Origin: Caballeronia ptereochthonis
Lineage (GTDB): Bacteria > Pseudomonadota > Gammaproteobacteria > Burkholderiales > Burkholderiaceae
NCBI RefSeq assembly: GCF_001545075.1
Contig: NZ_FCOB02000007.1
Location: 124,001 to 188,000 of the forward strand
DNA length: 64,000 nucleotides
Direction: 5' to 3'
The position numbers and the translations under genes are program-made. Position 1 is the first letter of the stretch. Each line of letters opens with the position of its first letter. This document shows positions 17,667 to 63,609 of this stretch, one piece after another. Under the pieces are notes generated by a model. The model did no database searches. It saw only the letters and a list, made by a program, of their open reading frames with translations, and was not told the DNA's origin.

Positions 17667-17770
17667 CATCGCGGCGATTTCACGAAAGGCAACATCAGTG
17701 TCGACAGGACACTAAAAGGATCAACGGCCGGTCCAGCGCGACCAGCCGATTAGATATCGCTTGGAGAAGC

Positions 17771-48267: not shown

Positions 48268-48307
48268 ATTTATTTTTGTCGACAAGAATAAATCAAGCGA
48301 CTATCAT
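48268..48307 (+). promoter_or_regulatory. TGTCGACA operator 1 with promoter of dioxygenase gene 1
   Basis: A 26-bp near-perfect palindrome (48268-48293, one mismatched pair) is centred on TTGTCGACAA. Its TCGACA (48279-48284) acts as a -35 hexamer (one mismatch from TTGACA), with a 17-bp spacer and -10 TATCAT (48302-48307). The start codon lies 53 bp further on. The FCD-type GntR protein encoded at 59967 is the likely binder. Confidence 0.75.
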
Positions 48308-48360
48308 GGAAACGACCGGATATGGAAAGCCGAGATCGTCAAAAATGAGGAGACATGCTG

Positions 48361-49206
48361 ATGATCAAGATTGAAAAGCTCACCGCCTGCATTGGCGCTG
48401 AACTGTCGGGCGTCAACCTGGGCGACGCATCGCGCGATGCGTCCTTGTTTGCGGAGATCAAGGCGCTGTTGATGCAGCACCGCGTGCTCTTTTTTCGCGA
48501 CCAGAACATTTCTCGCGAGGAACATGTCGCGTTCGCGCGCAAGTTCGGCGATCTGGAAGATCATCCGGTCGCAGGAAGCGATCCGGAACATCCGGGGCTC
48601 GTGCGGATTTATCGATCCGATGCGAAAAACCCCTACGAAAACAACTTTCACACCGACGGGCTGTGGCGGCCGGAGCCTTCCATGGGCGCGGTGCTTCGCT
48701 GCATCGAGTGCCCCGAAACGGGCGGCGACACGATCTGGGTCAATATGGTCGAGGCCTATAAGCAACTGCCGGAAGACATCAAGCGTCGCATCGCGGGTCT
48801 TCGAGCAAAAAGCAGCATCGAACATTCGTTCGGTGCGGCGATGGATCCCGACGAACGCCGCAAGCTCGCTGCGCAAAATCCCGACGTGGAGCATCCCGTC
48901 GTGCGCACGCATCCGGAAACCGGCGAAAAGGTCTTGTACGTGAGCAGCTTCACGACGCACTTCGTCAACTTCCATACGCCGGACAACGTCCGTTATGGAC
49001 TCGACAAGACGCCGGGCGCCAGCCTCCTGCTCAACTATCTGCAAAGCCAGGCGCTGATTCCCGAATATCAGGTACGTTTCAGATGGAAACCCAATAGCAT
49101 CGCCGTCTGGGACAATCGCTCCACGCAGCACTACGCGGTCATGGACTACTGGCCTGCTCCGCGCAAGATGGAGCGCGCGGGCATCATCGGTGACCGGCCT
49201 TATTGA
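48361..49206 (+). CDS. TauD/TfdA-family 2-oxoglutarate-dependent dioxygenase 1
   Basis: The 281-residue Fe(II) oxygenase has the facial triad His97-x-Asp99 (NNFHTDGLW) and His257 (TQHYAV), with the 2-oxoglutarate arginine Arg268 eleven residues after the distal His. Relatives hydroxylate sulfonates, aryloxyacids or other carboxylates. The ATG at 48361 is chosen because GAGGAG is eight bases upstream; the ATG at 48355 is only two bases from it. About two-thirds identical by eye to dioxygenase 2. Confidence 0.92.
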   Translation: MIKIEKLTACIGAELSGVNLGDASRDASLFAEIKALLMQHRVLFFRDQNISREEHVAFARKFGDLEDHPVAGSDPEHPGLVRIYRSDAKNPYENNFHTDGLWRPEPSMGAVLRCIECPETGGDTIWVNMVEAYKQLPEDIKRRIAGLRAKSSIEHSFGAAMDPDERRKLAAQNPDVEHPVVRTHPETGEKVLYVSSFTTHFVNFHTPDNVRYGLDKTPGASLLLNYLQSQALIPEYQVRFRWKPNSIAVWDNRSTQHYAVMDYWPAPRKMERAGIIGDRPY

Positions 49207-49238
49207 AGCATCGCGGCGCGCTGCTTCCCGAATAGCAG

Positions 49239-49289
49239 CACGGCCAGCGTATCCGGTTCATCTATCGGATAACGCTGGCCGTGTCTTTT
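49239..49289. terminator. Bidirectional terminator between dioxygenase 1 and BKACE 1
   Basis: CACGGCCAGCG (49239-49249) and TATCCG pair with CGGATA and CGCTGGCCGTG (49266-49283), leaving one bulged base. A TCTTTT tract follows on the plus strand. It sits exactly between two convergent stops. Confidence 0.85.
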
Positions 49290-49306
49290 CTACTTCGCTC
49301 GCGGCT

Positions 49307-50365
49307 TCAGGCGGTCTTGCGCAGGAAACCCTGATTGCCACCGTTGCGATTCGGCGCGAAGCCATTGGCCTGCAAAGACTCCTCCACCGTATCGTAGAAG
49401 ACCCCAATACGCGAGATCTCGCGTGCCTGCTGCGCCGTCGCGATCTCGCGTCCGAATTCCCGCGAGATGCGTACCAGTTGCTCGATCTGCCTGACGGTAC
49501 TCATCTTCTCGGTGCGCGACTGATTCCAAAGGCAGTCCTCGGTGCCGCAGCGGACATGCAGACCCGTGGAAATGCCCCACATGTTCACGGGCAGCACGTT
49601 GCGCACGTTGCTTTCCACCGTGACCACCGCGCCATCGGGAACGGCACGGATGAAGTTGGCGAGGCTGTAGACGTTCGGCGTATCCATGCCGCCGGCTATC
49701 GCGACCCAGTTCATCACCAGCGGGCCTTTGTAGAAGCCACGTCGCATCAGGCGCTCGACCGACTCGAAACTGTTGAGGTTGTAGCACTGGAAGGCGCTCT
49801 GAATACCCTTGGCCGTCAGACGCCGAACATGCTCCTCGACCCATCCGGGCTGCGCGGGAACGGTCATCTCCTTGTAGGCATTGAACAGTGCGGGCTGCTC
49901 GCGCGACGTGCCTTTGAAGTCCGCGTCTTCGGCCTGATCCGTGACGTTCATCTGCGAAGTATTCACCGTCACTGTCACCTGATCCGGCTTCGGTTCGAGT
50001 TCGGCCAGCATGTGGCGCGTATCGTCCGACAGCCATTTGGCGGCCTGCCCTTCGTCTTCGGGCGCGAACGAAATGGAACCACCGACCTGGATGATCATAT
50101 CCGGCACTGCCTTGCGCACGCCCGCAATCAATTGATTGAACATCGACAGGCGCTTGCTGCCCTTGCCATCCAGCTCGCGCACGTGCAGATGCAGCACCGT
50201 CGCGCCTGCGTTGTAGCAGTCCACGGCTTTCTGAATCTGGTCTTCCATCGTGACCGGAATGTCTTCGGGGAAGTCACCGGGCAGCCATCCGGGCGCATAC
50301 GGCGCGGCCGTGATAATCAGCGGTTGCTGGTTCTCGGGAAAGAGATGACCGTCGAGAAAATTCAT
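49307..50365 (-). CDS. BKACE (DUF849) beta-keto acid cleavage enzyme 1
   Basis: The 352-residue TIM-barrel enzyme has the zinc pair His59-x-His61 (VLHLHVRE), GGSISFAPE, NWVAIAGGMD and a C-terminal NRNGGNQGFLRK. BKACEs cleave a beta-keto acid with acetyl-CoA to give acetoacetate and a new acyl-CoA. It is longer than the common 290-310 residues. By eye it is about 80% identical to BKACE 2 at 62551. ATG at 50365 is in the same frame as a long artefactual upstream extension. Confidence 0.92.
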   Translation of the reverse strand: MNFLDGHLFPENQQPLIITAAPYAPGWLPGDFPEDIPVTMEDQIQKAVDCYNAGATVLHLHVRELDGKGSKRLSMFNQLIAGVRKAVPDMIIQVGGSISFAPEDEGQAAKWLSDDTRHMLAELEPKPDQVTVTVNTSQMNVTDQAEDADFKGTSREQPALFNAYKEMTVPAQPGWVEEHVRRLTAKGIQSAFQCYNLNSFESVERLMRRGFYKGPLVMNWVAIAGGMDTPNVYSLANFIRAVPDGAVVTVESNVRNVLPVNMWGISTGLHVRCGTEDCLWNQSRTEKMSTVRQIEQLVRISREFGREIATAQQAREISRIGVFYDTVEESLQANGFAPNRNGGNQGFLRKTA

Positions 50366-50478
50366 GTTGATTTCCAGGTGAGAGGCAGATTTCCTTGCGG
50401 CAGGTAGACAGCGCGCGAAGGCGATGATTGTGTCCGCTGTCGCGAGCGGACGCGGACAATGCGGTACAGCGCGTGACG

Positions 50479-51057
50479 CTACCGCGACTTGGCGAGTTCG
50501 CTGATGAATGTCTCGGCCAGCGGCCATTCGCCAAAACCCGACGCCGGATTCAGATGACCGACATCGCCGAGTTCGACGAAGCGGCTTCCCCACGCGCGAG
50601 CAAATTCGCGAGCGCGCGCAAGACGCGTCAAAGGGTCATTACTGCTGGCCGCGACGATGCTCGGAAATGGCAAGGCGCTACGCGGAATCGGTAACCATCC
50701 GTGCTGGTTCAGTGCGTCGATCGTCGGATAGCCGGGCGGCATCGGCGTTTCGAGATCCGCCGGCGCCGCAAGCAGTGCACCGTGAATCGCACGCGAGGCA
50801 TAGCGGCTCGCCCAATGCGCGAGCATCATCACGCCCGCACTGTGCGCAACGACGACGACCGGACCTTCGATCGAACCCAGTGCGCGCTCGATCGCATCGA
50901 CGCGTGCAGCGCAACTGAGCTTGTCATGCTCGAGCGGCGCGACGCTTTGCACGCGCGGCAGCTTCTGCGCGAGCAGAGTCTGCCAATGGTCGGCCACGTG
51001 TTCACGCAAGCCCGGAATAATGAGCACTGTCGCGGATGTAATGTTTGAATTGGACAT
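50479..51057 (-). CDS. Small alpha/beta hydrolase (RBBP9/YdeN type)
   Basis: The 192-residue serine hydrolase has the nucleophile in VVAHSAGVMM, Asp in the SSNDPLT strand and His in DVGHLNPASGFGEW; the last motif is typical of RBBP9-like proteins. It lies upstream of BKACE 1 on the same strand (113 bp) and may be co-transcribed. It could hydrolyse an ester or thioester in the pathway. Start at 51057 is preferred, although its ribosome site is weak. Confidence 0.88.
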   Translation of the reverse strand: MSNSNITSATVLIIPGLREHVADHWQTLLAQKLPRVQSVAPLEHDKLSCAARVDAIERALGSIEGPVVVVAHSAGVMMLAHWASRYASRAIHGALLAAPADLETPMPPGYPTIDALNQHGWLPIPRSALPFPSIVAASSNDPLTRLARAREFARAWGSRFVELGDVGHLNPASGFGEWPLAETFISELAKSR

Positions 51058-51235
51058 GTTTCGGTGATTGGAGGGTGAAAGCGAAAACCGCACAGCGTCT
51101 TTCATGCACGCGCGGATCTCATGTAGTCGATTCGGATAACCATTTTTTTTCGAAGTTTGAAATCAGCGGGTTTTCGACGCTTGACAATGCATGACACGGG
51201 GTTATCCTCTAACGACAACCTCTCGCCTCCTTCCG

Positions 51236-52306
51236 ATGTCCTCACTCGTTCGCGCCGCATGCCTCACTCATTACAGTGAGGTCGCTCGTGCGTCAGCACT
51301 CGATCCCGTGCGTATGCTTCTCGATGCGGGACTCGATCCTTCCGTGCTCGACAATCCGGATCTCAAGATTCCTGTGGAGCGTGGCGGGCAATTGCTGCAG
51401 GCTTCCGCCGCCGTGTCGGGAAACGAAAGTTTCGGGCTGTGCATGGCCGAGTCGCGCCGGCTGTCCAATCTCGGCGCTGTGGGGCTGCTCATTCGGGATC
51501 AGGCCACGCTTCGCGATTCGCTCGGCATACTGATGCGCTATCAGCCCGTGCTCAACGATGCGCTATCGCTGACTATCGAGGAATGCGGCGGGCTCGTCAT
51601 CATTCGCGAGGCGGTCAGGGCCGGCAACGCGCATCAGTCCACGCGCCAGAGAATCGAACTGGCGCTCGGCGTCATGGTGAGTCTCATTCGTCAGCTCATC
51701 CGCCCCGACTGGCGCCCGCGGCAGGTCTGCTTAGAGCACGCGGCGCCACGCGAGCTCAGTACGCATCTGCGATTCTTCGGCCCTTGTGTCGAGTTCGATC
51801 GTGATTTCAACGGCATCGTCTGCGCAAAGACCGATCTCGATGCGCGCAATCCTTCAGCCGACATCGCCATGACGCGCTATGCGCAACAACTGCTCGACGC
51901 ATCGCTCGTCACGCAACACGCGACGACACTCGAGGCCGTGCAGCGAGCCATCCTGCAACTCTTGCCCAGCGGCCGTTGCAGCATCGAACAGGTCGCCGAA
52001 CACATGGGCATGGTCTGTCGAACCGTGCAGCGCCGTCTCGCCGAAGAGGGACATAGCTTCTCGTCCATCCTCAACGAGGTTCGCAAGGAGCTCACGACAA
52101 GACATGTCATCGAAGGCGATCGCCCCCTGATCGACGTCGCGGCCCTGTTCGGCTTTTCTTCGCCGAGCGCCTTTTCGCGCTGGTATCACGCACAATTCGG
52201 TTGCAGCCCCAGGGAAAGCCGCGCACGGCGCGACGCCATGCATCGGCAGACGACGCAAGACTCGCGTCGTCTGCCGGAGCACCGGCTCGTCACGCGATCC
52301 GGGTAG
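51236..52306 (+). CDS. AraC-family regulator 1 (OruR/ArgR-like, PF12625 N-domain)
   Basis: The 356-residue protein has an Arabinose_bd N-domain (about 20-200) and a C-terminal AraC HTH (about 235-335; DVAALFGFSSPSAFSRWYHAQFG). It is divergent from the alpha/beta hydrolase and BKACE 1 genes, which it may control. Start ATG 51236 (MSSLVRAACLTHYSEVA) matches the paralogue at 58751 (MAIFVRSASLIKYSDIA). Confidence 0.92.
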   Translation: MSSLVRAACLTHYSEVARASALDPVRMLLDAGLDPSVLDNPDLKIPVERGGQLLQASAAVSGNESFGLCMAESRRLSNLGAVGLLIRDQATLRDSLGILMRYQPVLNDALSLTIEECGGLVIIREAVRAGNAHQSTRQRIELALGVMVSLIRQLIRPDWRPRQVCLEHAAPRELSTHLRFFGPCVEFDRDFNGIVCAKTDLDARNPSADIAMTRYAQQLLDASLVTQHATTLEAVQRAILQLLPSGRCSIEQVAEHMGMVCRTVQRRLAEEGHSFSSILNEVRKELTTRHVIEGDRPLIDVAALFGFSSPSAFSRWYHAQFGCSPRESRARRDAMHRQTTQDSRRLPEHRLVTRSG

Positions 52307-52336
52307 ACCCTGCACGGATCGCGCCCGTCTTCGTCG

Positions 52337-53308
52337 TCACGGCACGAGCACCGTGGAGCCCACCGTCTTGCGCGATTCGAGCGCGCGATGCGCGTCGGCG
52401 GCTTCATCGAGCGCGAACATCTGTCCGGGCTCGCTTTTGATTTTCCCGGCCAGCACGAGATCGAAAAGCTCGCGAGCCATCGACAGCATGTGTGAGCGCG
52501 GCGTCGCGTAATGCACCATCGCAGGCCGCGTCACCCAGAGCGATCCCTTGCGAGCCAGTACGCGCGTGTCGATCTGCACGGGACCGGACGATGTACCGTT
52601 GCTCACCAACGTTCCGCGCACCTGCAAGCTGTCCAGCGACGCGTCGAGCGTGTCCTTGCCCACCGAGTCGAAAACCACTTCGACGCCCTTGCCATTAGTG
52701 AGCTCACGCACGCGTTCGGCGATGTTTTCCCGCGAAGTCACGATGGTGTGCGTGCAGCCATTCGCCTTTGCCACTTCGGCCTTCGCATCGGAGCTGACCG
52801 TGCCGATCATCGTGACGCCCAACGCGCGCGCCCACTGGCATGCGATAAGACCGACGCCGCCCGCCGCAGCGTGATACAGGATGGTCTCGTGGCCCTTGAG
52901 CGGATACACCTGACGAAACAGGTACTGCGCGGTCATGCCCTTCATGATCAGCGTCGCGGCCGTTTTGTCGCTGATGCCATCGGGCAAGGGAATGAGCACA
53001 TCCGCGGGCATCACTCGGACGTCCGAGTAGGCGCCCTGCGGACCCAGCAGATAGCCGACGCGGTCGCCTACCTTGATGTCATCGACGCCTTCGCCGATGG
53101 CTTCGACCACCCCTACGGCATCGGAGCCGAGGCCATTGGGCAACGCCAGCGGATACTGCCCCGTGCGAAAATAGATGTCGATGAAATTGACCGCCACGAA
53201 TGTATGACGCACACGCGCCTCGCCAGGGCCGGGTTCGCCGACCGCAACGGTTTCGAGACGGAGGACCTCGGGGCCACCGATTTCATCAAAGCGAATCGCT
53301 TTTGCCAT
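52337..53308 (-). CDS. NADPH:quinone oxidoreductase (MDR family)
   Basis: The 323-residue protein has YFRTGQYPL (QOR signature), GLGSDAVGVVEAIG and the cofactor loop YHAAAGGVGLIACQWA. It lacks catalytic zinc ligands. ATG at 53308 follows AAGGAAAGTTGAAC. It may reduce an enone or quinone in the island pathway. Same strand as the porin, 88 bp downstream of it. Confidence 0.93.
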   Translation of the reverse strand: MAKAIRFDEIGGPEVLRLETVAVGEPGPGEARVRHTFVAVNFIDIYFRTGQYPLALPNGLGSDAVGVVEAIGEGVDDIKVGDRVGYLLGPQGAYSDVRVMPADVLIPLPDGISDKTAATLIMKGMTAQYLFRQVYPLKGHETILYHAAAGGVGLIACQWARALGVTMIGTVSSDAKAEVAKANGCTHTIVTSRENIAERVRELTNGKGVEVVFDSVGKDTLDASLDSLQVRGTLVSNGTSSGPVQIDTRVLARKGSLWVTRPAMVHYATPRSHMLSMARELFDLVLAGKIKSEPGQMFALDEAADAHRALESRKTVGSTVLVP

Positions 53309-53396
53309 GTTCAACTTTCCTTGGTGAAGGATCGACTATTCGCGCGGCTCATTGCGCCGCGCTTTCGGGACATCGCGAGATCATGTCGGCATCGCA

Positions 53397-54518
53397 TCAG
53401 AACATCTGGCGAATCCCGACTTCAAAGCCCATCTGATTCGAGCCGCCGAACGGAGCGGCGGGAACGGCGGTGCCCGCCGATACCGAGTAAATCGCGCCTT
53501 TTCCATGATTTTTCATATACCCCGCGACGCCATACACAGATGTGCGCTTGCTCAGGAAGTAGTTCGCCCTGACCATGCCGAGCGTGCCATCGGCGTCGTC
53601 GGCGGCATTGCCGATATGCGAAAGCTGGGCGTCGAACTGCCATGCGCCATAGAGAACGGATGCGCCGAGATATTCGACATCCGTCTTGACCGAGCGCACG
53701 TCGCCGTGCAGAAGACGATGTATCCAGCCCATGCCCAGGCGCACCAGTCCGACGGTGAGATGACCATTCACCTGATAGCGGCGGTCGGTATCGCCGGAGT
53801 TGGTGAACGCGACACCGGGCGCGCCGGGCACGACCGTATCCGGCGCGGAACCTTGCCCGCCTCTCAGCTCCTCGAAGGACGTCGCGACGCCCCAGTTGCT
53901 CGCGTCGTACTTGATCATGGCGGACAAGCCGCGGCAGGCCACGAAGTCGCCTGCAACCTGACCGCCGCAATTGCCGGCCGTCGATGTATCCCGGCCGAAC
54001 GAATATGTTGCGCCGACGGTGAATCCATAGAACGTGCCCATATAGGCGACGGCGTTATCGAATCGGTCGGCCAGCAACGCGCTATCGAGCGAACCCAGAC
54101 TGCCGATGCCGGCGGGACCGACGATGTTCGCATCGGTCATCGCCCATGTCTGCATGCTGTACTGACGCCCGAAGGTAAGCTGTCCCCAGCCGTTCTTCAG
54201 GCCGACATAGGCCTGACGCCCGAATAGGCGGCCGGCCTGCTGCAGCGCGCCGTTCGAGAGGGAGAAGCCATTTTCCAGCGTGAAAATCGCTTTCAGTCCT
54301 CCGCCCAGATCTTCCGATCCCTTCAGGCCCCATCGCGAAGGCAAGTCTCCGCCGCCGATCACCGGCATGCGCGCAACCGATCCGCCGCTCGGGGTCGCGT
54401 GCGTCAGGTATTCGACGCCTGTATCGACGATTCCGTATAGCGTGACCGAACTTTGTGCGAATGCGGGCGCACACGCCAATGGTGTCATCAAAGAAATCGC
54501 AAGTCGTACTTTCCTCAT
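53397..54518 (-). CDS. Burkholderia-type outer-membrane porin
   Basis: The 373-residue precursor has a Sec signal (MRKVRLAISLMTPLACAPAFA) followed by QSSVTLYGIVDTGVEY, SRWGLKGSEDLGGGLKA and terminal GFEVGIRQMF (C-terminal Phe, as needed for outer-membrane assembly). The ATG at 54518 follows CGGAGACGAA. It is the first gene of a minus-strand unit with the quinone oxidoreductase and has a TGTCGACA operator at its promoter. Confidence 0.95.
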   Translation of the reverse strand: MRKVRLAISLMTPLACAPAFAQSSVTLYGIVDTGVEYLTHATPSGGSVARMPVIGGGDLPSRWGLKGSEDLGGGLKAIFTLENGFSLSNGALQQAGRLFGRQAYVGLKNGWGQLTFGRQYSMQTWAMTDANIVGPAGIGSLGSLDSALLADRFDNAVAYMGTFYGFTVGATYSFGRDTSTAGNCGGQVAGDFVACRGLSAMIKYDASNWGVATSFEELRGGQGSAPDTVVPGAPGVAFTNSGDTDRRYQVNGHLTVGLVRLGMGWIHRLLHGDVRSVKTDVEYLGASVLYGAWQFDAQLSHIGNAADDADGTLGMVRANYFLSKRTSVYGVAGYMKNHGKGAIYSVSAGTAVPAAPFGGSNQMGFEVGIRQMF

Positions 54519-54655
54519 TTCGTCTCCGCGTTGTTTATTCTGCATACCGAATCTTTGATCATGCGGCCGGTCTACTGTCCGATCACGGTTTCCACGCATG
54601 ACGTCGGCGGCATCAAGAATCGACGAGCGAAAACATGCAGCATCGCGCTGGACTC

Positions 54656-54691
54656 AGTTTAACAGCTAGACATATTCATGTCGACATAAAT
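54656..54691 (-). promoter_or_regulatory. TGTCGACA operator 2 with porin promoter
   Basis: The operator core is ATTCATGTC/GACATAAAT (54674-54691), an 18-bp near-palindrome. On the minus strand TCGACA (54684-54679) is the -35, a 17-bp spacer follows, and TAAACT (54661-54656) is the -10. The porin start is about 138 bp further down. The same arm ATTCATGTC recurs in operator 4. Confidence 0.75.
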
Positions 54692-55126
54692 TACTGAAAA
54701 CTCGTGGATTCGCAGCCGCTCGAACACCGTGCCGATACGCTGCGCCCCGCCGACGCACATGTAGTTGATCACCTATGGGTCGACACCCGAACGGCCCTTT
54801 CTCGCCCAACAGGGAACCGCCTGATCGTTTGAAATCCGCGTTGCCACCGAATGAAGCGATCGTCCGAGCCAGTCTAGATTTGTCCCGGACCGTCGACTTG
54901 ACGAATCGAGCCACAGACTTGGCATTTGCTGACACTCCGGGTAAACGCCGAAGCGCCGCCGGCTGTCATGCCCCCGATGCCAAACCGTGACGCGATCAGT
55001 CAAGCGCCCGAATCGTGTCGTCAAGACAATCAAGCCCGTAACGAATTCACCGACGCGCGAGCAGTCCGCATCGTTCGATGCATCCCCGACGCGTCGCGAC
55101 CTCATGAATTAAAGGAAAGCGCAACC
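54692..55126. other. 435-bp intergenic stretch between the porin promoter and dioxygenase 2
   Basis: No intact gene. The minus strand near 54712-54771 reads VINYMCVGGAQRIGTVFERL, faintly like a thiolase active-site C-terminus (MCxGGGQG), possibly a relic. The promoter for dioxygenase 2 should be in the right half, but I cannot place it. Confidence 0.4.
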
Positions 55127-55969
55127 ATGCGAATCAAACCGCTTACATGCTCGATCGGTGCGGAACTCACGAATGTGAATGTTGCGGACGTCGTCCGAAG
55201 CGAATCATTGTTCGCCGAGATCAAGGCGCTGCTGCTGAAACATCGCGTGCTGTTCTTTCGCGACCAGGACATATCGCGTGCCGACCATGTCGCCTTTGCC
55301 CGCTGTTTCGGCGATCTCGAAGATCATCCCGTCGCCAACACGGTGCCGGGATATCCCGGTCTGATCGAGATCTACAAGAGCGAGAAGCGCGATCACTTCG
55401 AGAACACCTATCACAGCGATGCCTCGTGGCGCGCGAATCCGCCCAGGGCCGCCGTATTGCGCTGCATCTCGTGTCCCGATGTCGGCGGCGACACCATCTG
55501 GGTGAACATGGTTGAGGCGTACAACAGCCTGCCGGAAGAGATCAAGACGAAGATCGCGGGCCTGCGCGCCAAGCATGGCATCGAGCATTCCTTCGGCGCG
55601 ATTCTCGCGACCGAGGAGCGCGAAGAACTGATCAGAAAGAACCCGCTGGTGGATCATCCGGTGGTCCGGACGCATCCGGAGACAAGTGAAAAGGTCTTGT
55701 ACGTGGGACCGTTCTCGACTCACTTCATCAACTATCACAGCCCGGAGAACGTGCGCTTCGGACAGGACAAGACGCCGGGCGCGAGCCTGCTTCTCAACTA
55801 TCTGATCAGTCAGGCGGCCATTCCGGAGTATCAGGTCCGCTTCCGCTGGGAACCTAATAGTCTGGCGATCTGGGACAACGTGGCGACCCAGCACTACGCG
55901 GTGAGCGACTACTGGCCGGCGCCGCGTCGCATGGAACGCGCGACCGTTCGCGGAGACCGGCCGTTCTGA
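55127..55969 (+). CDS. TauD/TfdA-family 2-oxoglutarate-dependent dioxygenase 2
   Basis: The 280-residue paralogue of the gene at 48361 keeps all ligands: His96-x-Asp98 (NTYHSDASW), His256 (TQHYAV), Arg267. The differences include the loop before the HxD motif and FxTDGLW versus YHSDASW, so the substrate range may differ. ATG at 55127 follows AAAGGAAAGCGCAACC. It is followed on the same strand by an MFS permease and a broken CoA-transferase. Confidence 0.92.
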   Translation: MRIKPLTCSIGAELTNVNVADVVRSESLFAEIKALLLKHRVLFFRDQDISRADHVAFARCFGDLEDHPVANTVPGYPGLIEIYKSEKRDHFENTYHSDASWRANPPRAAVLRCISCPDVGGDTIWVNMVEAYNSLPEEIKTKIAGLRAKHGIEHSFGAILATEEREELIRKNPLVDHPVVRTHPETSEKVLYVGPFSTHFINYHSPENVRFGQDKTPGASLLLNYLISQAAIPEYQVRFRWEPNSLAIWDNVATQHYAVSDYWPAPRRMERATVRGDRPF

Positions 55970-56122
55970 GCGCACATGGCGCGCGCTGACATCGGATGCA
56001 AAGTCTTTGTCACGGGTTGCAAAGCGGCCCGCCGAACAGAGCTTAGAGTCGAAGGGGCCGAGTGATGGCTCGCACCGTAACAGGTTCCGCGCGAAACAAG
56101 ATAGTCCAGGAGACAAGCAAGC

Positions 56123-57472
56123 ATGCACGTGATTTCCGATGCGCCCTCTGCCAGCCATCACGACGGCTACGTCACAGGCCCGCACCAGGCGTGGTTTGCC
56201 TTCGTGATGACCTTCGCGCTCATGTTGTTCGACTTCATCGATCGACAGGTGATCGTTTCGCTCTTCCCTCACATCAGGAGCGAATGGGGTCTCAGCGACA
56301 AGCAACTAGGCTCGCTCGTGTCGATCGTCTCGATCGTCGTGGCGGCAGGCGGCATTCCCGTCGCACTCATTGCCGACCGGAAGGGGCGCGTGAAAAGCAT
56401 CATCGTGATGGCGATCGCGTGGAGCCTTGCGACGATATCGTGCATGTTCACCGGCAACTACGGCCAGTTGTTCGCCGCACGCGCGGTCGTCGGGCTTGGA
56501 GAAACCGGCTACGGCTCGGTCGGCGCGGCCCTCATCTCGACGTTGTTTCCGCGGCGACTGCGAAGCGCGGCGCTCGGAGCGTTCTTCGCGGCGCCGTCGC
56601 TGGGCTCGGTGCTGGGCGTGTTCCTCGGCGGCATCATTGCGGCGCATTGGGGCTGGAAGGCCGCGTTCGGCGTCGTGGGTGTGCCCGGACTCGTGCTGGC
56701 GCTCGTCTATCTGCGCGTGCGCGACTACGACTCCGTGCCGCTGACATCGGGTACGAGCCGCGCCCCGCAGCGTCTGGGTGAAACGCTCAGCCATATCTTC
56801 GGCACGCTGGCGCGCACGCCTACCTTGCTGTTCGTCTGCGCGGGCGCGGCGGCGCAACTGGTCACGGTGTCCGCCATCTGGTCATGGCTACCGAGCTATC
56901 TTAACCGTTATCACGCCATGGATGCCGAGGCCGCGTCCAGAGCGGCAGCGGCGGTCGTCCTGATCGGCGCGCTGAGTTGCACGTTCTGGGGCATCGCGGT
57001 GGGACGCGTGGCGCAACGCAAGCCGCGCAACAAACTGCCCGCGTTGTCGGTGCTTTGCGTGACGACATCCGCCATCTTCATTACGGCCTTCGGCGGACAC
57101 TACACCGGCGATGTGCAATTCAGATGGATCGTCGTGGGCGCATTCTTCATGAACTGCACGGTCGGTGTGGTGGCCGGCGTCGCGATGGACGTCATTCATC
57201 CCGGCATGCGCTCGACGGGCGCCGCGGTGCTGTCTCTGTTCCAGAACATGTTCGGGCTGGCCGTCGGTCCGTTTCTGGCGGGCATCCTGTCCGATCGCTG
57301 GGGTCTGCAGCATGCACTGACTCTCACGCCGCTGTTCAGTCTGCTGGCCGCCGTGTTCTTCGCCATCGCCATGCGCAGCTATGACCAGGACGTCGCGCGT
57401 ATCGCCGCGGTCGAGCGGGACGTGGCGCCCGCCGTCGCCGAAGATCGCGTGCCTGAACCGCAAACCGAGTGA
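56123..57472 (+). CDS. MFS transporter 1 (ACS/phthalate-type)
   Basis: The 449-residue inner-membrane protein has about 12 transmembrane segments, DFIDRQVIVSLFP in TM1 and the loop motif ADRKGRVKS between TM2 and TM3. It resembles anion:cation symporters for organic acids. ATG follows GGAGACAAGCAAGC. About 40% like MFS 2 at 61084 by eye. Likely importer of the island substrate. Confidence 0.92.
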   Translation: MHVISDAPSASHHDGYVTGPHQAWFAFVMTFALMLFDFIDRQVIVSLFPHIRSEWGLSDKQLGSLVSIVSIVVAAGGIPVALIADRKGRVKSIIVMAIAWSLATISCMFTGNYGQLFAARAVVGLGETGYGSVGAALISTLFPRRLRSAALGAFFAAPSLGSVLGVFLGGIIAAHWGWKAAFGVVGVPGLVLALVYLRVRDYDSVPLTSGTSRAPQRLGETLSHIFGTLARTPTLLFVCAGAAAQLVTVSAIWSWLPSYLNRYHAMDAEAASRAAAAVVLIGALSCTFWGIAVGRVAQRKPRNKLPALSVLCVTTSAIFITAFGGHYTGDVQFRWIVVGAFFMNCTVGVVAGVAMDVIHPGMRSTGAAVLSLFQNMFGLAVGPFLAGILSDRWGLQHALTLTPLFSLLAAVFFAIAMRSYDQDVARIAAVERDVAPAVAEDRVPEPQTE

Positions 57473-57544
57473 CGGTGGCGCGCGCTTTTCGAGCCGACGA
57501 ACCACGCAAGTCCCGTTTCCTCCTTCACATCATCAGGAACCTCG

Positions 57545-58709
57545 ATGTCGAATCATATTGCTTCGCTGCCGCTCGCCGGCGTGCGCGTTCTCGACCTTTC
57601 CCGCGTGCTCGCAGGCCCGTGGTGCGGCATGGTGCTCGGCGATCTCGGCGCGGAGGTGATCAAGGTGGAGCATCCGCAACGCGGCGACGACACACGCGAC
57701 TGGGGCTTGCGTGCCGGTTCATCGGGGACGTCCTATTTCAACAGCGCGAATCGCAACAAGCGCTCGGTCACCATCGACCTGCAAACCAGCGAAGGACAGG
57801 ACATCGCGCGAGCGCTCGCACGGCAGTGCGACGTCGTCGTGCAGAACTTCAAGCAGGGCGGCGCCGACAAATTCGGACTCGGGTATGCGCAACTGAAACG
57901 GGAAAATGAGTCGCTCATCTACTGCTCGATCTCGGGCTACGATCCGACCGGAACGGAAGCTGATGGCGTTGAATGGCGAGGCCAGCCAGGCGCCGCTCAA
58001 ATTCGGCGTCGCCGCCGTCGATCTGTTCACGGGCATGTACGCAGCACAGGCAGTGCTCGCGGCATTGTTCGAACGCCAGAGCACGGGACGCGGCCGGCAC
58101 ATCGAAATGGCGCTGTTCGATTGCGGCCTCATGATCACGTCGTATTACGGACTCGAAGCGCTGATGACGGGCAAAGACCCCTTGCGCTACGGCAATGCGC
58201 ATCCGTCGATCGTGCCGTATGGCGTCTTCGAGGCGCAGGACGGAGCGCTCGTCATTACTGTCGGCAACAACGCGCAGTTCGTTCGCTTCTGCCGCGATGT
58301 CATCGATCGACCCGACCTCGCCGAGGACGACCGTTTCCGCACGAACATCGCCCGGGCACAAAACCGGTCGACGTTATTGCCGGAGATCGATCGCGAACTT
58401 TCGCGGCACAAACGCGCCGTTTTGCTGGAGCGACTGAAGAACGCGAGCATTCCGTGCGGCGAAGTGCTCGGTCTGCACGAGGCGTTGTCGTCGGAACGGG
58501 CGACGGGTTCCGGTCTCGTCACGAACGTGCCGCATCCGGAAACCGGCGAGATGCAGGTGCTCGCGCCGCCGTATCGTTTCGACGGAACGCGTCCGCCTGT
58601 GCGGCGCGCGCCGCCGCCACTCGGCGAAGGCACGCGTGACGTGCTTCGGTCGCTGCTCGCAATGAGCGACGAGCAGATCACGCAACTCGAAGCGGATGGA
58701 ATCGTGTGA
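57545..58709 (+). pseudogene. CaiB/BaiF-type CoA-transferase, frameshifted by internal deletion
   Basis: Codons from 57545 give a normal start (LAGVRVLDLSRVLAGPWCG ... SLIYCSISGYDPTGTE). The rest (LMALNGEASQAPLKFGVA ... ITQLEADGIV) is in another frame. Between them the family normally has about 15-20 residues with the GYD segment; here they are missing at 57949-57958, where CGGAA is directly repeated. The total is 388 codons against about 400 in relatives. Unless recoding occurs, no full-length enzyme is made. It is 72 bp after MFS 1. Confidence 0.85.
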
Positions 58710-58750
58710 CCTTTATATGATTGCATTGCCGCGCGGGACGTCGCAGCGCG

Positions 58751-59785
58751 TCAGTGTGCTTCGTTCACGTCGTCACGCGCGACGTCTGCAAAGTAGTCCG
58801 ATCGCCATCGTGTGGGCGGCTTGCCAAACTCACCGCTGAACCATCGCGAGAACGCGCTGACTTCGGAGAAGCCCACGAGATTCGCGATGTCCGACACAGT
58901 ATGGTGGCGATTGCCGAGATATCGCATCGCCAGTTCGCCGCGCACTTCGTTGACGAGCGCGGAGAAGCTTTGTCCCGCCTGCTCCAGTTGCCGCTGCAGC
59001 GTGCGGGGCGCAAAGCCGAGGCGCTGTCCGACGCGTTCGATGGCGCCCTGCCCTTGCGGCAACAGGATATGGATCGCGCGCCGCACCTCGTCCGTTATCG
59101 ATGCGGGCCGCGATGGCAGCCGCAAATCGAGCAGCTCTTTCGCGTAACGCGCGAGCGCGGCATCGCCGAGCGGATTGGGCCGATCCAGTTCCTCGCGCGT
59201 GAGCGCGATGGCGTCGAACTCGGAATCGAATTCGACATTCGGCCCCAGAAACGGCCGATGAAACCGCATGCTCTCGGGCGCGGCATGCGCGAAATACACG
59301 CCACGCGCCTTCCACTGCGCGCCGAGAATGCCGCGGATCAGATTGAACACCGCGCCGACAGTCAGCTCCACGATGTCGCGCCCGGGATCGGGCCGCCCGG
59401 TGACCAGCACCACATGCACGAGCGACACTTCGCCAAAGTCCGCCACGCGGATCGAAACCGAATCGCTCAGCATGTGACGATACCGCTCGACTTCCGCGAG
59501 CACATGGCGCAAAGTCGGCTGATGCTGGAGATAGAGACTCACCGCGCCGAAGTCCGACAGCCGCCACGCTTCGCCGATGCGCACGCCGAGCGATCGAAGC
59601 TCCGTCGATCGCACCGACTCCTGGAACACGCTCGCGAGCCCGGCCTCCGGAATGCGCAAATCAGGCGCGCTCAGACATACCGGGTCCAACCCGGCTTCAC
59701 GCACCTTGCAGATGGGATCGATGCCGACGGCACGGGCGATATCGGAATACTTGATCAGCGATGCGCTGCGAACGAAAATGGCCAT
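58751..59785 (-). CDS. AraC-family regulator 2 (OruR/ArgR-like)
   Basis: The 344-residue paralogue of AraC 1 has an Arabinose_bd domain (about 15-195) and AraC HTH (about 230-325; DIANLVGFSEVSAFSRWFSGEFG). It is convergent with the broken CoA-transferase and divergent from the GntR gene. Probably the module-2 counterpart of AraC 1. Confidence 0.92.
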   Translation of the reverse strand: MAIFVRSASLIKYSDIARAVGIDPICKVREAGLDPVCLSAPDLRIPEAGLASVFQESVRSTELRSLGVRIGEAWRLSDFGAVSLYLQHQPTLRHVLAEVERYRHMLSDSVSIRVADFGEVSLVHVVLVTGRPDPGRDIVELTVGAVFNLIRGILGAQWKARGVYFAHAAPESMRFHRPFLGPNVEFDSEFDAIALTREELDRPNPLGDAALARYAKELLDLRLPSRPASITDEVRRAIHILLPQGQGAIERVGQRLGFAPRTLQRQLEQAGQSFSALVNEVRGELAMRYLGNRHHTVSDIANLVGFSEVSAFSRWFSGEFGKPPTRWRSDYFADVARDDVNEAH

Positions 59786-59900
59786 TTAAAGATTGTCGAA
59801 TTCAGCCGGTAAAACTATAGGATAGACGCTGCGGCGTCTGCACGGAATAACCACTATGGCTTTCGGCGAGCCGCCGCGCCTGCCCGGTTCGTGTCGGTTA

Positions 59901-59937
59901 TATTTTTGTCGACATTACATACAGTGCGTCCTAGAAT
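59901..59937 (+). promoter_or_regulatory. TGTCGACA operator 3 with GntR promoter
   Basis: TTGTCGACA (core TGTCGACA 59907-59914) in an AT-rich context. TCGACA (59909-59914) serves as -35, with 17 bp to the -10 TAGAAT (59932-59937). The GntR start is 30 bp after the -10, which fits simple autorepression. Confidence 0.75.
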
Positions 59938-59966
59938 CAGGATGTTAAAGACCGCCCCGGCTCGTC

Positions 59967-60782
59967 ATGGCTCGACATAAAACGCAAAATCTTCCCGACC
60001 TCTCCGCGCTTCTGACGCCGAAAAATCCGTTGATGCTGGCCGTCGAGCGCGCCGTGCTGCGCGGGCAGGATTCGGCTTATGCGTCTACGCCGATAGCCGA
60101 GCAGATCGCGGCGCGCCTCGCCGGGGTCATCACGCTCGATCTGCTCAAGTCGGGACAACGCCTGCTCGAAAAGGACATCAGCGAGGTGCTTCACGTGAGC
60201 CGCGCCCCGGTTCGGGAGGCGCTGCGCATCCTGGAACGGGATCGTCTGGTCGAATTTCAGGCGAGACGAGGTGCAATCGTCACCGCGCCTGACGAAAGCG
60301 AGCTTCGTGACATCTTCCGCGTGCGCAGCGTGCTCTATCTGACGATGCTGGAACAGGTCGCCAACGAGAGCCCGGCCGAACTGGAAGCGCTCATGTCCGA
60401 GCGGTTGCCGAGGCTCGTCAAGGCGGCCGATGAATCTCCGGACGCGTATGCAGTGGAAAGCTTCCTGCTGAACTTTGCGACTGTCGATCTGTGCCGCAAC
60501 CGGCTGCTGGTGGATATTCTGCAATCGATTTCGCTGCGAACGCTGCGTTATCTGAGGCTGAGCATGGTGGCAGATCCGCAGTCCATTCGCACTTCGCTCA
60601 AACGCTGGCGCGCGTTGCACAAGGCAATCGTCGGCCACGACAATGAAACGCTGCTTTCGCTGGCTGCACAGCGCCTCGACGAAGCACGGGATGCCGCGGT
60701 TCAGGCGATTGCGCCAGTATCGACGACGCGCCGCGCCGCGAAGTCGCCGAAGCAGAGGACGCCGGTAGCCTCGCTCGACTGA
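59967..60782 (+). CDS. FCD-type GntR regulator of the island
   Basis: The 271-residue protein has an extended N-terminal tail (about 1-38), a winged helix (about 40-108; LHVSRAPVREALRILERDRLVEFQ) and an FCD helical domain (about 115-245). It is the only GntR gene in the 48-64 kb island. Four palindromes of the size and symmetry expected for GntR/FCD dimers lie at island promoters, including its own. Its ligand is probably a pathway acid or acyl compound. Confidence 0.9.
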   Translation: MARHKTQNLPDLSALLTPKNPLMLAVERAVLRGQDSAYASTPIAEQIAARLAGVITLDLLKSGQRLLEKDISEVLHVSRAPVREALRILERDRLVEFQARRGAIVTAPDESELRDIFRVRSVLYLTMLEQVANESPAELEALMSERLPRLVKAADESPDAYAVESFLLNFATVDLCRNRLLVDILQSISLRTLRYLRLSMVADPQSIRTSLKRWRALHKAIVGHDNETLLSLAAQRLDEARDAAVQAIAPVSTTRRAAKSPKQRTPVASLD

Positions 60783-61083
60783 GCCCTTCCTGCATCGCTT
60801 CGTGATTGCGGATAGAGCGAAACGTCCTCTGCATCCGCAGCGCATTGACGATTGCGCATGCGGACGTCGTGCCGCACCTGCTTGCCCTTCTTTCTCTTCT
60901 CTTCACGTCCGCCAAAGCAGTTCCGACTCCGCCGACTGTCGGCTCTCCCATGCTTGCGGTTCATGTTCAACACTCGACATGCATGAGGTCTAACCCCTAC
61001 TTGGTTAATGTCGACATGAATTAGGGGCGATGATAGTCTTCAATCGTGGTGAAGAAGTTCGTCAATCACGAGAGGAGACGCCA
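60783..61083. other. 301-bp intergenic region upstream of MFS 2
   Basis: The right end holds operator 4 and its promoter. The left 200 bp show no gene. CCCCTA (near 60994) and TAGGGG (near 61022) flank the operator as an outer inverted pair. Confidence 0.5.
61001..61039 (+). promoter_or_regulatory. TGTCGACA operator 4 with MFS 2 promoter
   Basis: TTAATGTCGACATGAAT is centred on 61012. TCGACA (61011-61016) is the -35, and 17 bp later TAGTCT (61034-61039) is a modest -10. The operator's GACATGAAT is the exact complement of the ATTCATGTC arm of operator 2. Transcription would begin near 61046, which rules out the ATG at 61030 as the MFS start. Confidence 0.7.
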
Positions 61084-62430
61084 GTGAATCTATCAACGAC
61101 CAACGAAATGCCTGCCTCAACCGCTGCAACTCGCGATTCTTCCCGCACTTATGCGTGGGTGGTTTTCGCCTTGATGTTCTGCCTTTTGCTTTCCGACTAC
61201 ATGTCGAGGCAGGCACTAAATGCCTTCTTTCCGATTCTGAAAGTCCAGTGGCAGATGTCCGACACGCACCTGGGCTCGATCAGCAGCGTCGTGCCGCTCA
61301 CGGTCGGTATTCTGACGCTGCCGTTCTCCATCTTCGCCGACCGCTGGGGGCGGGTGAAAAGCATCGCACTGATGGTCGCGCTATGGAGCGTCGCCACATT
61401 GGGATGCGCAATTGCAAGCAACTATGAAGAGATGCTCGTCGCGCGCTTCTTCGTGGGCGTCGGCGAGGCGGCCTATGGCAGCGTCGGAATCGCGATAATC
61501 GTGAACATCTTCCCGAAGCACATGCGCTCCGGCATTGCCGGCGGCTTCACTTCGGCGGCCGCGTTCGGATCGGTGCTCGGCGTCTCCCTTTCGGGCATCG
61601 TCGCGACCCACTTCGGCTGGCGCTGGTCCATGGGTGTCATGGCGATCTTCGGGTTCGTGCTGCTCATCGTCTACTGTTGCGTCGTGACGGAGAAAAGGCT
61701 CGAACGCGCGCATCTGGAAGACGTCGCGCCGGTCACATACGGATCCGCCAAGCTGACATTGCGCGCACTCATCGCAGGCATCTTCCCGAGCCGATCGGTG
61801 TTCTGCGCATACCTCGGATGCGCGCTTCAAGTATTCATCCAGGGAACGCTCTTCGTGTGGCTGCCCAGCTATCTGAATCGTTACTGGGGCATGTCGGTCA
61901 GTCAGGCGGCGTTGACGGCGGCAGGCCTCGTGCTGGTCAGCGGTGTGGGGCAACTCATGTGCGGCGTGATCACGGACCGGATCAGCGGAGGTTCTTCCCT
62001 CAAGCGATGGAACATGGCGATCGCCTATTGCCTCGCGCTCGGTGCGCTGCTGACGATCGCGTTCCAGGTGCCGCAGGGCACATTGCAACTCGTCCTGCTC
62101 GCTTTTGCCGTGTTCTTTCTTGCAAGCTCGTTTGGCACATGCAGCCCGATCATTGCCAACGCAACGTCATCGGCCATTCACGGCTCGGTGTTTGCGACGC
62201 TCACGCTCTTCAATAACATCCTGGGTCTTGCAGCCGGCCCATTCCTGACCGGCGCGGCTGCCGATGCAGTCGGCCTCAAGGTCGCCTTGCATTGCCTTCC
62301 GCTTCTGGCAGTGCTTCCGTTCATCATGTTTATCGTTGGCAGGCGGTTCAGCTTGGCGGAAACGTCGCGTTCAAGACTTGAGCAAGCGATGCTGTCACGA
62401 AATGGCAAGTCTCAGGCGTCCGATGTATAG
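61084..62430 (+). CDS. MFS transporter 2 (ACS/phthalate-type)
   Basis: The 448-residue, 12-TM organic-acid transporter has SDYMSRQALNAFFPIL in TM1 and the loop motif ADRWGRVKS. The start is the GTG at 61084 with AGGAGACGCCA upstream; the in-frame ATG at 61030 falls inside the promoter. It is followed by BKACE 2 on the same strand (120 bp). Confidence 0.92.
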   Translation: MNLSTTNEMPASTAATRDSSRTYAWVVFALMFCLLLSDYMSRQALNAFFPILKVQWQMSDTHLGSISSVVPLTVGILTLPFSIFADRWGRVKSIALMVALWSVATLGCAIASNYEEMLVARFFVGVGEAAYGSVGIAIIVNIFPKHMRSGIAGGFTSAAAFGSVLGVSLSGIVATHFGWRWSMGVMAIFGFVLLIVYCCVVTEKRLERAHLEDVAPVTYGSAKLTLRALIAGIFPSRSVFCAYLGCALQVFIQGTLFVWLPSYLNRYWGMSVSQAALTAAGLVLVSGVGQLMCGVITDRISGGSSLKRWNMAIAYCLALGALLTIAFQVPQGTLQLVLLAFAVFFLASSFGTCSPIIANATSSAIHGSVFATLTLFNNILGLAAGPFLTGAAADAVGLKVALHCLPLLAVLPFIMFIVGRRFSLAETSRSRLEQAMLSRNGKSQASDV

Positions 62431-62550: not shown

Positions 62551-63609
62551 ATGAATTTCCTTGACGGTCACCTTTACCCCGAGAATCAGCAGCCCCTGAT
62601 CATCACAGCCGCTCCCTACGCGCCGGGCTGGATTCCCTCAGACTTCCCGGAAGACATCCCTGTCACGATGGAGGATCAGATTCAGAAGGCGGTCGATTGC
62701 TATGAAGCCGGCGCCACCGTGCTACATCTGCATGTGCGCGAACCCGACGGCCGGGGCAGCAAGCGGCTGTCCATGTTCAACGAGCTGATTGCCGGAGTGC
62801 GCGCCCGCGTACCTGAAATGGTCATTCAGGTCGGCGGCTCCATTAGCTTCGCTCCCGAATCGGAGGGCGAGGCGGCTAAATGGCTGAGCGACGACACACG
62901 ACACATGCTGGCCAAGCTCGATCCGAAGCCCGACCAGGTGACCGTGACCGTCAACACCACGCAAATGAACGTGACGGAACATGCCGGTCTGGATGACTTC
63001 AAAGGCGTTTCGCGAGGATTTCCGCACCTGTACGAGACCTACAAGGACATGATCGTCCCATCGAATCCGAGTTGGGTCGAAGAGCACATCCGACGCCTGA
63101 CGGCAGCCGGAATCCAGAGCGAGTTTCAGTGCTACAACATCAATAGCTTCGAAACCATCGAGCGGATGATTCGCCGCGGCATCTACAAGGGTCCGCTGGT
63201 GATGAACTGGGTGGCTATCAGCGGCGGGATGGATCAGGCAAACATCTACAACCTGGCCAACTTCCTGCGGGCCGCACCGGACGGCGCAGTGATAACGGTG
63301 GAAAGTTCGGTTCTGAACGTATTGCCGGTGAATATGATAGGGATCGCCCTGGGCCTGCATGTGCGATGCGGCATCGAAGACGTTCTCTGGAATCAGACGC
63401 GCACGGGCAAGATGAGCTCCGTCGAACAGATCAAGCAACTGGTGCGCATCGCCGGCGAATTCGGCCGTCCAATCGCGACGGCAAAGCAGGCAAGAGAGAT
63501 CATGCAGATCGGCGTTTTTTACGAGACCGCGGACGAGACGCTTCAGGCCAACGGCTTCGCGCCCAATCGGAATGGCGGCAATCAAGGTTTTCTGAGGAAG
63601 CCGGTCTGA
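62551..63609 (+). CDS. BKACE (DUF849) beta-keto acid cleavage enzyme 2
   Basis: The 352-residue zinc enzyme has His59-x-His61 (VLHLHVRE), GGSISFAPE, NWVAISGGMD and NRNGGNQGFLRK. It is about 80% identical to BKACE 1 by eye and has the same unusual length. It is probably co-transcribed with MFS 2. A short hairpin CCC-TTCG-GGG before a T-run near 62492-62505 might attenuate read-through. Confidence 0.92.
   Translation: MNFLDGHLYPENQQPLIITAAPYAPGWIPSDFPEDIPVTMEDQIQKAVDCYEAGATVLHLHVREPDGRGSKRLSMFNELIAGVRARVPEMVIQVGGSISFAPESEGEAAKWLSDDTRHMLAKLDPKPDQVTVTVNTTQMNVTEHAGLDDFKGVSRGFPHLYETYKDMIVPSNPSWVEEHIRRLTAAGIQSEFQCYNINSFETIERMIRRGIYKGPLVMNWVAISGGMDQANIYNLANFLRAAPDGAVITVESSVLNVLPVNMIGIALGLHVRCGIEDVLWNQTRTGKMSSVEQIKQLVRIAGEFGRPIATAKQAREIMQIGVFYETADETLQANGFAPNRNGGNQGFLRKPV

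Follow-up and report, generated by a model that had tools for sequence, protein, structure and literature searches.

In a 64,000-nucleotide stretch of the Caballeronia ptereochthonis genome (positions 124,001 to 188,000 of contig NZ_FCOB02000007.1, referred to here as the window), four palindromes lie in an island of genes that includes TauD-type dioxygenases and beta-keto acid cleavage enzymes (BKACE). We consider it highly probable that they serve as operators for the FCD/VanR-type GntR regulator encoded among them (gntR, 59967-60782, plus strand, 271 amino acids), and that they act as repressor sites from their position on −35 elements. The regulator is assigned on the basis of genome-level co-occurrence, conservation of the sites and their layout in orthologue loci, a recognition helix that does not vary, and agreement with a published operator consensus. 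By these sequence comparisons, the link of the sites to this GntR, which a first reading of the DNA (the original prediction) had offered as inference, now appears well supported.

The palindromes share the core TGTCGACA, flanked by AT-rich DNA, at 48277, 54679, 59907 and 61009, in the gaps preceding tauD1, the porin gene, gntR and the transporter gene MFS2. All four hold the core GT-CG-AC and the hexamer TCGACA, which agrees with TTGACA in five of six bases, and a TANNNT hexamer stands exactly 17 bp further on. The sites, the spacing and the genes that own the promoters agree, base by base, with the original prediction. Site S1 (ATTTATTTTTGTCGACAAGAATAAAT, a 26-bp near-palindrome at 48268-48293, plus strand) heads tauD1 and contributes to a putative promoter at 48279-48307 (−35 at 48279-48284; −10 TATCAT at 48302-48307). 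On the minus strand, S2 (ATTTATGTCGACATGAAT, 54674-54691) heads the porin gene and matches the 18-mer ATTNATGTCGACATNAAT perfectly, with a putative promoter at 54656-54684 (−35 at 54684-54679; −10 TAAACT at 54661-54656). The last two lie on the plus strand: S3 (ATTTTTGTCGACATTACA, 59902-59919), the weaker site before gntR itself, with three mismatches and a putative promoter at 59909-59937 (−35 at 59909-59914; −10 TAGAAT at 59932-59937), and S4 (GTTAATGTCGACATGAAT, 61004-61021), which heads MFS2 with one mismatch and a putative promoter at 61011-61039 (−35 at 61011-61016; −10 TAGTCT at 61034-61039). The consensus first proposed, ATTnnTGTCGACAnnAAT, fails on the right side of the 59907 site, where the flank reads TTACAT; the other three sites are all within two mismatches of the 18-mer.

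The window is part of contig C41, and the whole genome, of 7.71 Mb, has TGTCGACA at 89 places. The window holds five of them, compared with 1.43 in shuffled sequence (1 of 100 shuffles reaches five); given the genome-wide rate, at least four would fall within 12.7 kb with a probability of 1.7e-5, uncorrected for the motif having been chosen after it was seen. The composite pattern TGTCGACA-N16..18-TANNNT is far more discriminating: it is found at exactly four places in the genome, which are the four sites of the window, and none of the remaining 85 TGTCGACA carries the layout. Read backwards as a control, the pattern occurs once. At up to two mismatches, ATTNATGTCGACATNAAT has four genomic places, namely 48277, 54679, 61009 and C19:39045; the gntR site is reached only at three mismatches, a level at which the genome has 27 places. 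A genome-wide regulon was rejected, the single extra place, C19:39045, having no TCGACA-N16..18-TANNNT listed there. We also built a matrix from 58 sites of related loci outside Caballeronia and scored it on the window and on 100 random windows, the genome-wide searches being pattern searches. It gave 37.8 bits for the tauD1 site, 34.3 for porin, 29.6 for gntR and 26.0 for MFS2; the next place in the window scored 7.9 bits, and the best among the random windows 16.7. The fifth TGTCGACA of the window, at 17699, was considered as an operator and rejected: its flank matrix score is −8.1 versus +10.0 to +21.8 for the four sites, its 20 flanking bases have 45% G+C versus 15-35%, and no TANNNT stands 16-18 bp away.

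Searching with the GntR protein alone, without reference to the palindrome, gave 32 related loci; after removal of one weak match (L048), 31 loci totalling 575 kb were kept (L017-L047), the nearest named relatives being Caballeronia species. These loci contain 79 TGTCGACA places, 71 of them AT-flanked, versus 6.6 expected for TGTCGACA at the rate of the source genome, and AT-flanked sites are present in 27 of the 31 (the exceptions are L027, L028, L040 and L041). The loci are related rather than independent, and the test values given throughout are guides. Two Paraburkholderia loci hold, within a few kilobases of the first gntR, a further copy that has diverged (L022, 13676-14389, 76% identical to the query; L023, 13603-14400, 71%).

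At the level of whole genomes, the regulator and its site co-occur almost without exception. Among 58 Caballeronia genomes, the source genome included, nine have a GntR orthologue (E at most 2e-83; next best match 4.7e-18). All nine contain at least one perfect ATTNATGTCGACATNAAT and at least two sites with no more than one mismatch, and the 49 genomes lacking the orthologue contain no perfect copy, two of them holding one 1-mismatch site; presence of the orthologue and of the perfect 18-mer thus agree in 58 of 58. In a family-level sample of 200 genomes, which includes 23 Caballeronia, all six orthologue genomes have the site, five in perfect form, and the 194 others have no perfect copy, ten holding one 1-mismatch site, so that agreement is 199 of 200 (the exception is G170). 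Fisher's exact test for perfect sites gave 9e-11 for the genus and 2e-9 for the family, uncorrected for kinship. The 18-mer was derived from loci whose coordinates place them in five of the eight further genus genomes with the orthologue, and in three of the four such family genomes that lie outside the genus; its independent tests are G001, G033 and G034, each with a perfect site, and G170, with one mismatch. A 16-base pattern is also rare by chance, and its absence elsewhere mainly indicates that other regulators in those genomes do not use it. Seven of the ten family genomes with a stray 1-mismatch site belong to one genus, g12 (G117, G126, G152, G159, G198, G215 and G220); they are small and lack a GntR orthologue.

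The promoter layout is conserved along with the palindrome. Outside the window, 41 of the 71 AT-flanked sites have, on one strand or both, TA...T at a distance of 17 bp from TCGACA, and 54 have it at 16-18 bp. With the window included the counts are 45 and 58 of 76, at a cut of 50% G+C for the flank that admits the 17699 site to the 76. Control three-base ranges at spacings from 10 to 42 gave 0-6 of 76, the range 7-9 gave 16 of 76 owing to the AT-rich flank, and none of the eight TGTCGACA places with GC-rich flanks has TA...T at 16-18 bp. When seven gntR promoters were aligned, the operator core and the −10 stood out from mostly variable surroundings; in six aligned MFS2 promoters further blocks are conserved too. 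One of these, TGAGGTCTAACCCCTA at 60984-60999, just upstream of S4, occurs once in the window and is for the most part conserved across the MFS2 promoters of six Caballeronia sequences (the window, L017-L020 and L039); it is perhaps the site of a second regulator. The idea that a second element is shared here was rejected, as GAGGTCTAACCCCTA, near MFS2, occurs once in the window at up to three mismatches.

The protein itself has an N-terminal GntR winged helix-turn-helix (PF00392, 44.2 bits versus a cutoff of 27; E 1.5e-11) and a C-terminal FCD domain (PF07729, 40.3 bits versus 24.3; E 5e-10), which places it in the FCD (FadR) subfamily of the GntR superfamily. The recognition helix VSRAPVREA is invariant in 30 of 30 aligned proteins, and identity in the FCD domain is 40-48% in six. 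The predicted model shows six FCD helices between residues 110 and 248, where block values of the predicted local distance difference test are mostly 78-97, consistent with the six-helix effector domain of the VanR group. An alignment of 20 orthologues, compared by columns rather than by superposition, shows no histidine that is fully or almost fully conserved. The usual FCD metal site is therefore probably missing, and the protein is probably not a metal-binding FCD member; passages of PMC6608401 name the metal-site histidines for TM0439 and HypR. PhnR of Burkholderia (TIGR03338) was rejected as an identity for the protein, at 64.5 bits versus a cutoff of 271.5.

The closest solved protein is AlkR (9ISW), both by sequence (E 1.9e-13) and by fold, in which it ranked first at 26% identity; VanR of Agrobacterium fabrum (Atu1419; 6ZA3, 6Z74, 6ZA7), an FCD repressor solved on palindromic DNA, ranked third to eighth at 20-22% identity and is likened by fold alone. 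The TM-scores were modest (0.43-0.51 of the query). AlkR is described in its report (PMC12042122, in part) as a repressor of an oxygenase gene with a footprinted palindrome, ATTGTCAGACAAT. That palindrome shares the TGTC/GACA core with the present operators but is one central base longer, and it covers the −10 regions of the alkB2 promoter, whereas the present site contains the −35 and is common to four promoters. An AlkR orthologue was nevertheless rejected, given the 26% identity and the genes behind the sites (TauD, porin, GntR, MFS and BKACE). According to the sections on motifs in Suvorova et al. 2015 (PMC4494728), FadR-subfamily operators are AT-rich palindromes with a GTM-N0-1-KAC core, in which three bases separate the GT and AC boxes, or two in several of the groups; all four sites fit this consensus as the two-base kind, GT-CG-AC. 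The same sections associate a proline at position 40 of their numbering with avoidance of G/C immediately ahead of GT, and the proline found here, aligned by eye, fits the T present at that base. A TauD dioxygenase/porin/MFS/BKACE regulon is not named in those sections. HypR of Streptomyces coelicolor offers a likeness, being, in the account of PMC6608401 as far as it covers this protein, an FCD-type GntR regulator that represses its own gene and catabolic genes as well. It differs in that its own operator covers the −10, the symmetry of its motif is unclear, and its zinc site has three histidines. Searches of the open-licence literature gave weak negatives: nothing for a GntR with ATGTCGACAT or for a Caballeronia GntR dioxygenase regulon, no lead to the exact operator among the entries listed for TGTCGACA, TTGTCGACAA or BKACE with GntR, and, among the papers listed in broader searches, nothing on this regulon by titles and abstract openings.

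Several observations weigh against these sites being operator-promoters of the GntR. An exact AT-flanked site is missing from four of the 31 orthologue loci. In L028 the core varies by one base and still scores 33.9 by the matrix; L040 has gntR at a contig edge and no site in its remaining 10 kb, and matrix and pattern searches of L027 and L041 gave no convincing one. G170, whose GntR is 53% identical, has no perfect site, and its 1-mismatch site is on a contig other than that of its GntR. Outside the window, 17 of the 71 sites lack TA...T at 16-18 bp. A plain consensus promoter scan called four promoter-like sites versus 4.1 expected in shuffles, so that the promoter calls rest on conservation and not on consensus; the scan recovered S1, S2 and S3 and missed S4, whose TAGTCT is a poor −10. 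The DNA-binding domain of the predicted model has low confidence.

Alternative explanations were considered in the light of these points. Each of the nine operator genomes of the genus has one or the other of the two AraC-type regulator genes of the island (51191-52306 and 58751-59785), and two have both, so that co-occurrence alone would allow an AraC protein to bind the palindromes, with GntR a bystander. The individual counts fit this less well: AraC1 (at least 74% identity) is in six of the nine and AraC2 (at least 92%) in five, versus nine of nine for GntR. AraC proteins, moreover, usually bind direct repeats, not short symmetric palindromes. A better argument against them comes from six loci (L022, L023, L030, L035, L038 and L044) that carry 2-5 AT-flanked sites yet have no AraC homologue by tblastn at 1e-15 in the stretch searched, although a gene further off could exist there; we regard an AraC binder as very unlikely. 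From the 89 genomic TGTCGACA and the unenriched promoter scan it might be argued that four SalI-like palindromes have come to lie by chance beside chance −10 hexamers. The layout is confined to these four, the matrix from other genera picks just these in the window, core and −10 are conserved in the gntR promoter, and perfect sites track the orthologue across the genus, which contradicts chance and leaves it a negligible probability.

GntR might instead bind the sites and activate, and some FadR-type proteins are described in part of PMC6608401 as able to repress or to activate depending on position. At all four promoters, however, the centre of the operator, placed at about −33 from a start inferred some 7 bases past the −10, contains the −35 hexamer, and activators usually sit upstream of the −35. 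CitO is an example of such an activator position (PMC6608401, in the passage on that protein). A site on the regulator's own gene with a good −10 also fits negative autoregulation better, and activation seems quite unlikely.

Repression by competition is favoured, since by its geometry the operator centre would sit on the sigma contact. Taking the computed sites, layout, restriction to the island, conservation and co-occurrence together, we infer a switch in which binding, dimerisation, repression, the transcript starts and the ligand would be as follows. A GntR dimer would grip the two TGTC/GACA half-sites and the AT-rich flanks; as the −35 TCGACA forms the heart of the palindrome, repressor and the −35-binding region of sigma would compete for the same bases, and a bound dimer would bar RNA polymerase. 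A ligand, probably a pathway intermediate, would free GntR and switch on tauD1, porin and MFS2-BKACE2, and autorepression of gntR through a conserved, weaker operator with a good −10 would ensure that some repressor is always made.

The link to the GntR regulator is supported because a site precedes gntR itself in the window and in 12 related loci, and these 13 gntR promoters show a graded operator strength. Their operators have 2-4 mismatches, commoner in the −10-proximal half (mean 1.9 versus 1.2), and their −10s are TAGAAT, TATAAT or TAAAAT. Operators of 32 structural genes have 0-3 mismatches, 31 of them 0-2, and the rank test for the difference gives 2e-7, uncorrected for kinship, with promoter classes partly assigned by hand, exact TGTCGACA cores alone counted and L032:4552 placed in two classes. 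From these sequences the weaker gntR operator may be read as that of a leaky, auto-repressed promoter, a small case of conserved graded operator strength.

The operators head four units of the window. By Pfam, the 48.3-63.6 kb region contains tauD1, BKACE1, a serine hydrolase, AraC1, a zinc-dehydrogenase-like Qor, porin, tauD2, MFS1, a coenzyme A (CoA)-transferase, AraC2, gntR, MFS2 and BKACE2. The gene tauD1 (48361-49206, plus strand; start picked by reading the sequence) encodes a TauD/TfdA-family Fe(II)/2-oxoglutarate dioxygenase; a longer frame begins at 48355 and matches PF02668 at E 1.4e-64. The porin gene (53397-54518, minus strand; Porin_4, E 7.4e-51) likewise has a start picked by reading the sequence. 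For MFS2 (61084-62430, plus strand; MFS_1, E 1.3e-46), the sequence and the promoter position suggest that the start is probably the GTG at 61084, downstream of the promoter; the ATG of a longer frame, at 61030, falls between the −35 and the −10. BKACE2 (62551-63609, plus strand; PF05853, E 6.4e-62) lies about 120 bp further on and probably shares a transcript with MFS2. By the matrix, no separate operator stands before BKACE1, the hydrolase, either AraC gene, the zinc-dehydrogenase-like gene or tauD2-MFS1-CoA-transferase, nothing else in the window exceeding 7.9 bits, and a regulon "covering" the island, as originally described, is too broad.

Across the window and its relatives, the composite promoter occurs on 65 strands, which a crude open reading frame picker assigned, in a rough tally, to GntR (12), tauD1 (10), MFS2 (7, one of them, in L021, doubtful), porin (5), BKACE (4), Qor (1) and tauD2 (1); 12 others lead to frames without an island homologue and 13 have no assigned frame, the gntR of the window among them. 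In several Paraburkholderia loci (L022, L030), BKACE has its own operator.

TauD1 matches E. coli TauD (1GQW and relatives) and, at 427 bits, 5VN6, a structure named taurine dioxygenase, and by alignment it keeps the histidines and the aspartate that we take to form the iron site. One Cupriavidus locus (L044, 10829-12918) has a single operator facing both tauD1 and a PF03601 gene, and another (L034, 1943-2728) has a PF03601 gene after an operator near gntR. PF03601 is presumably the YeiH-like family of putative sulfite/sulfate exporters; among 33 stretches its relatives were found in L044, in L034 and, at 27% only, in L038, and none lies in the window. As the operator is shared with a YeiH-type gene in one Cupriavidus, a sulfonate or sulfate ester might be guessed as the substrate.

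More broadly, and as a doubtful extension, this GntR could head an undescribed regulon, common to Caballeronia, Paraburkholderia, Cupriavidus and related bacteria, for a catabolic route in which a TauD-type dioxygenase and a beta-keto acid cleavage enzyme are combined, with the regulator sensing a CoA-linked intermediate as AlkR does and the weak auto-operator setting the basal repressor level. Apart from this extension, the sites described here provide an uncharacterised GntR family with a proposed operator, a target list and a testable promoter layout. They group TauD dioxygenase, BKACE, MFS transporter and porin as one probably co-regulated pathway, the regulated genes being a shortlist toward its substrate. 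The mechanism is an ordinary gene switch and would not surprise a specialist.

Between 48355 and 63609 the island also contains paralogous pairs, with TauD, BKACE, MFS and AraC each present twice. The family III CoA-transferase gene at 57545-58709 spans two frames, profile positions 1-130 falling in one and 144-365 in the other; it is either a disrupted gene or the product of a sequencing error, and in seven relatives the gene is a single open frame of 405-426 amino acids.

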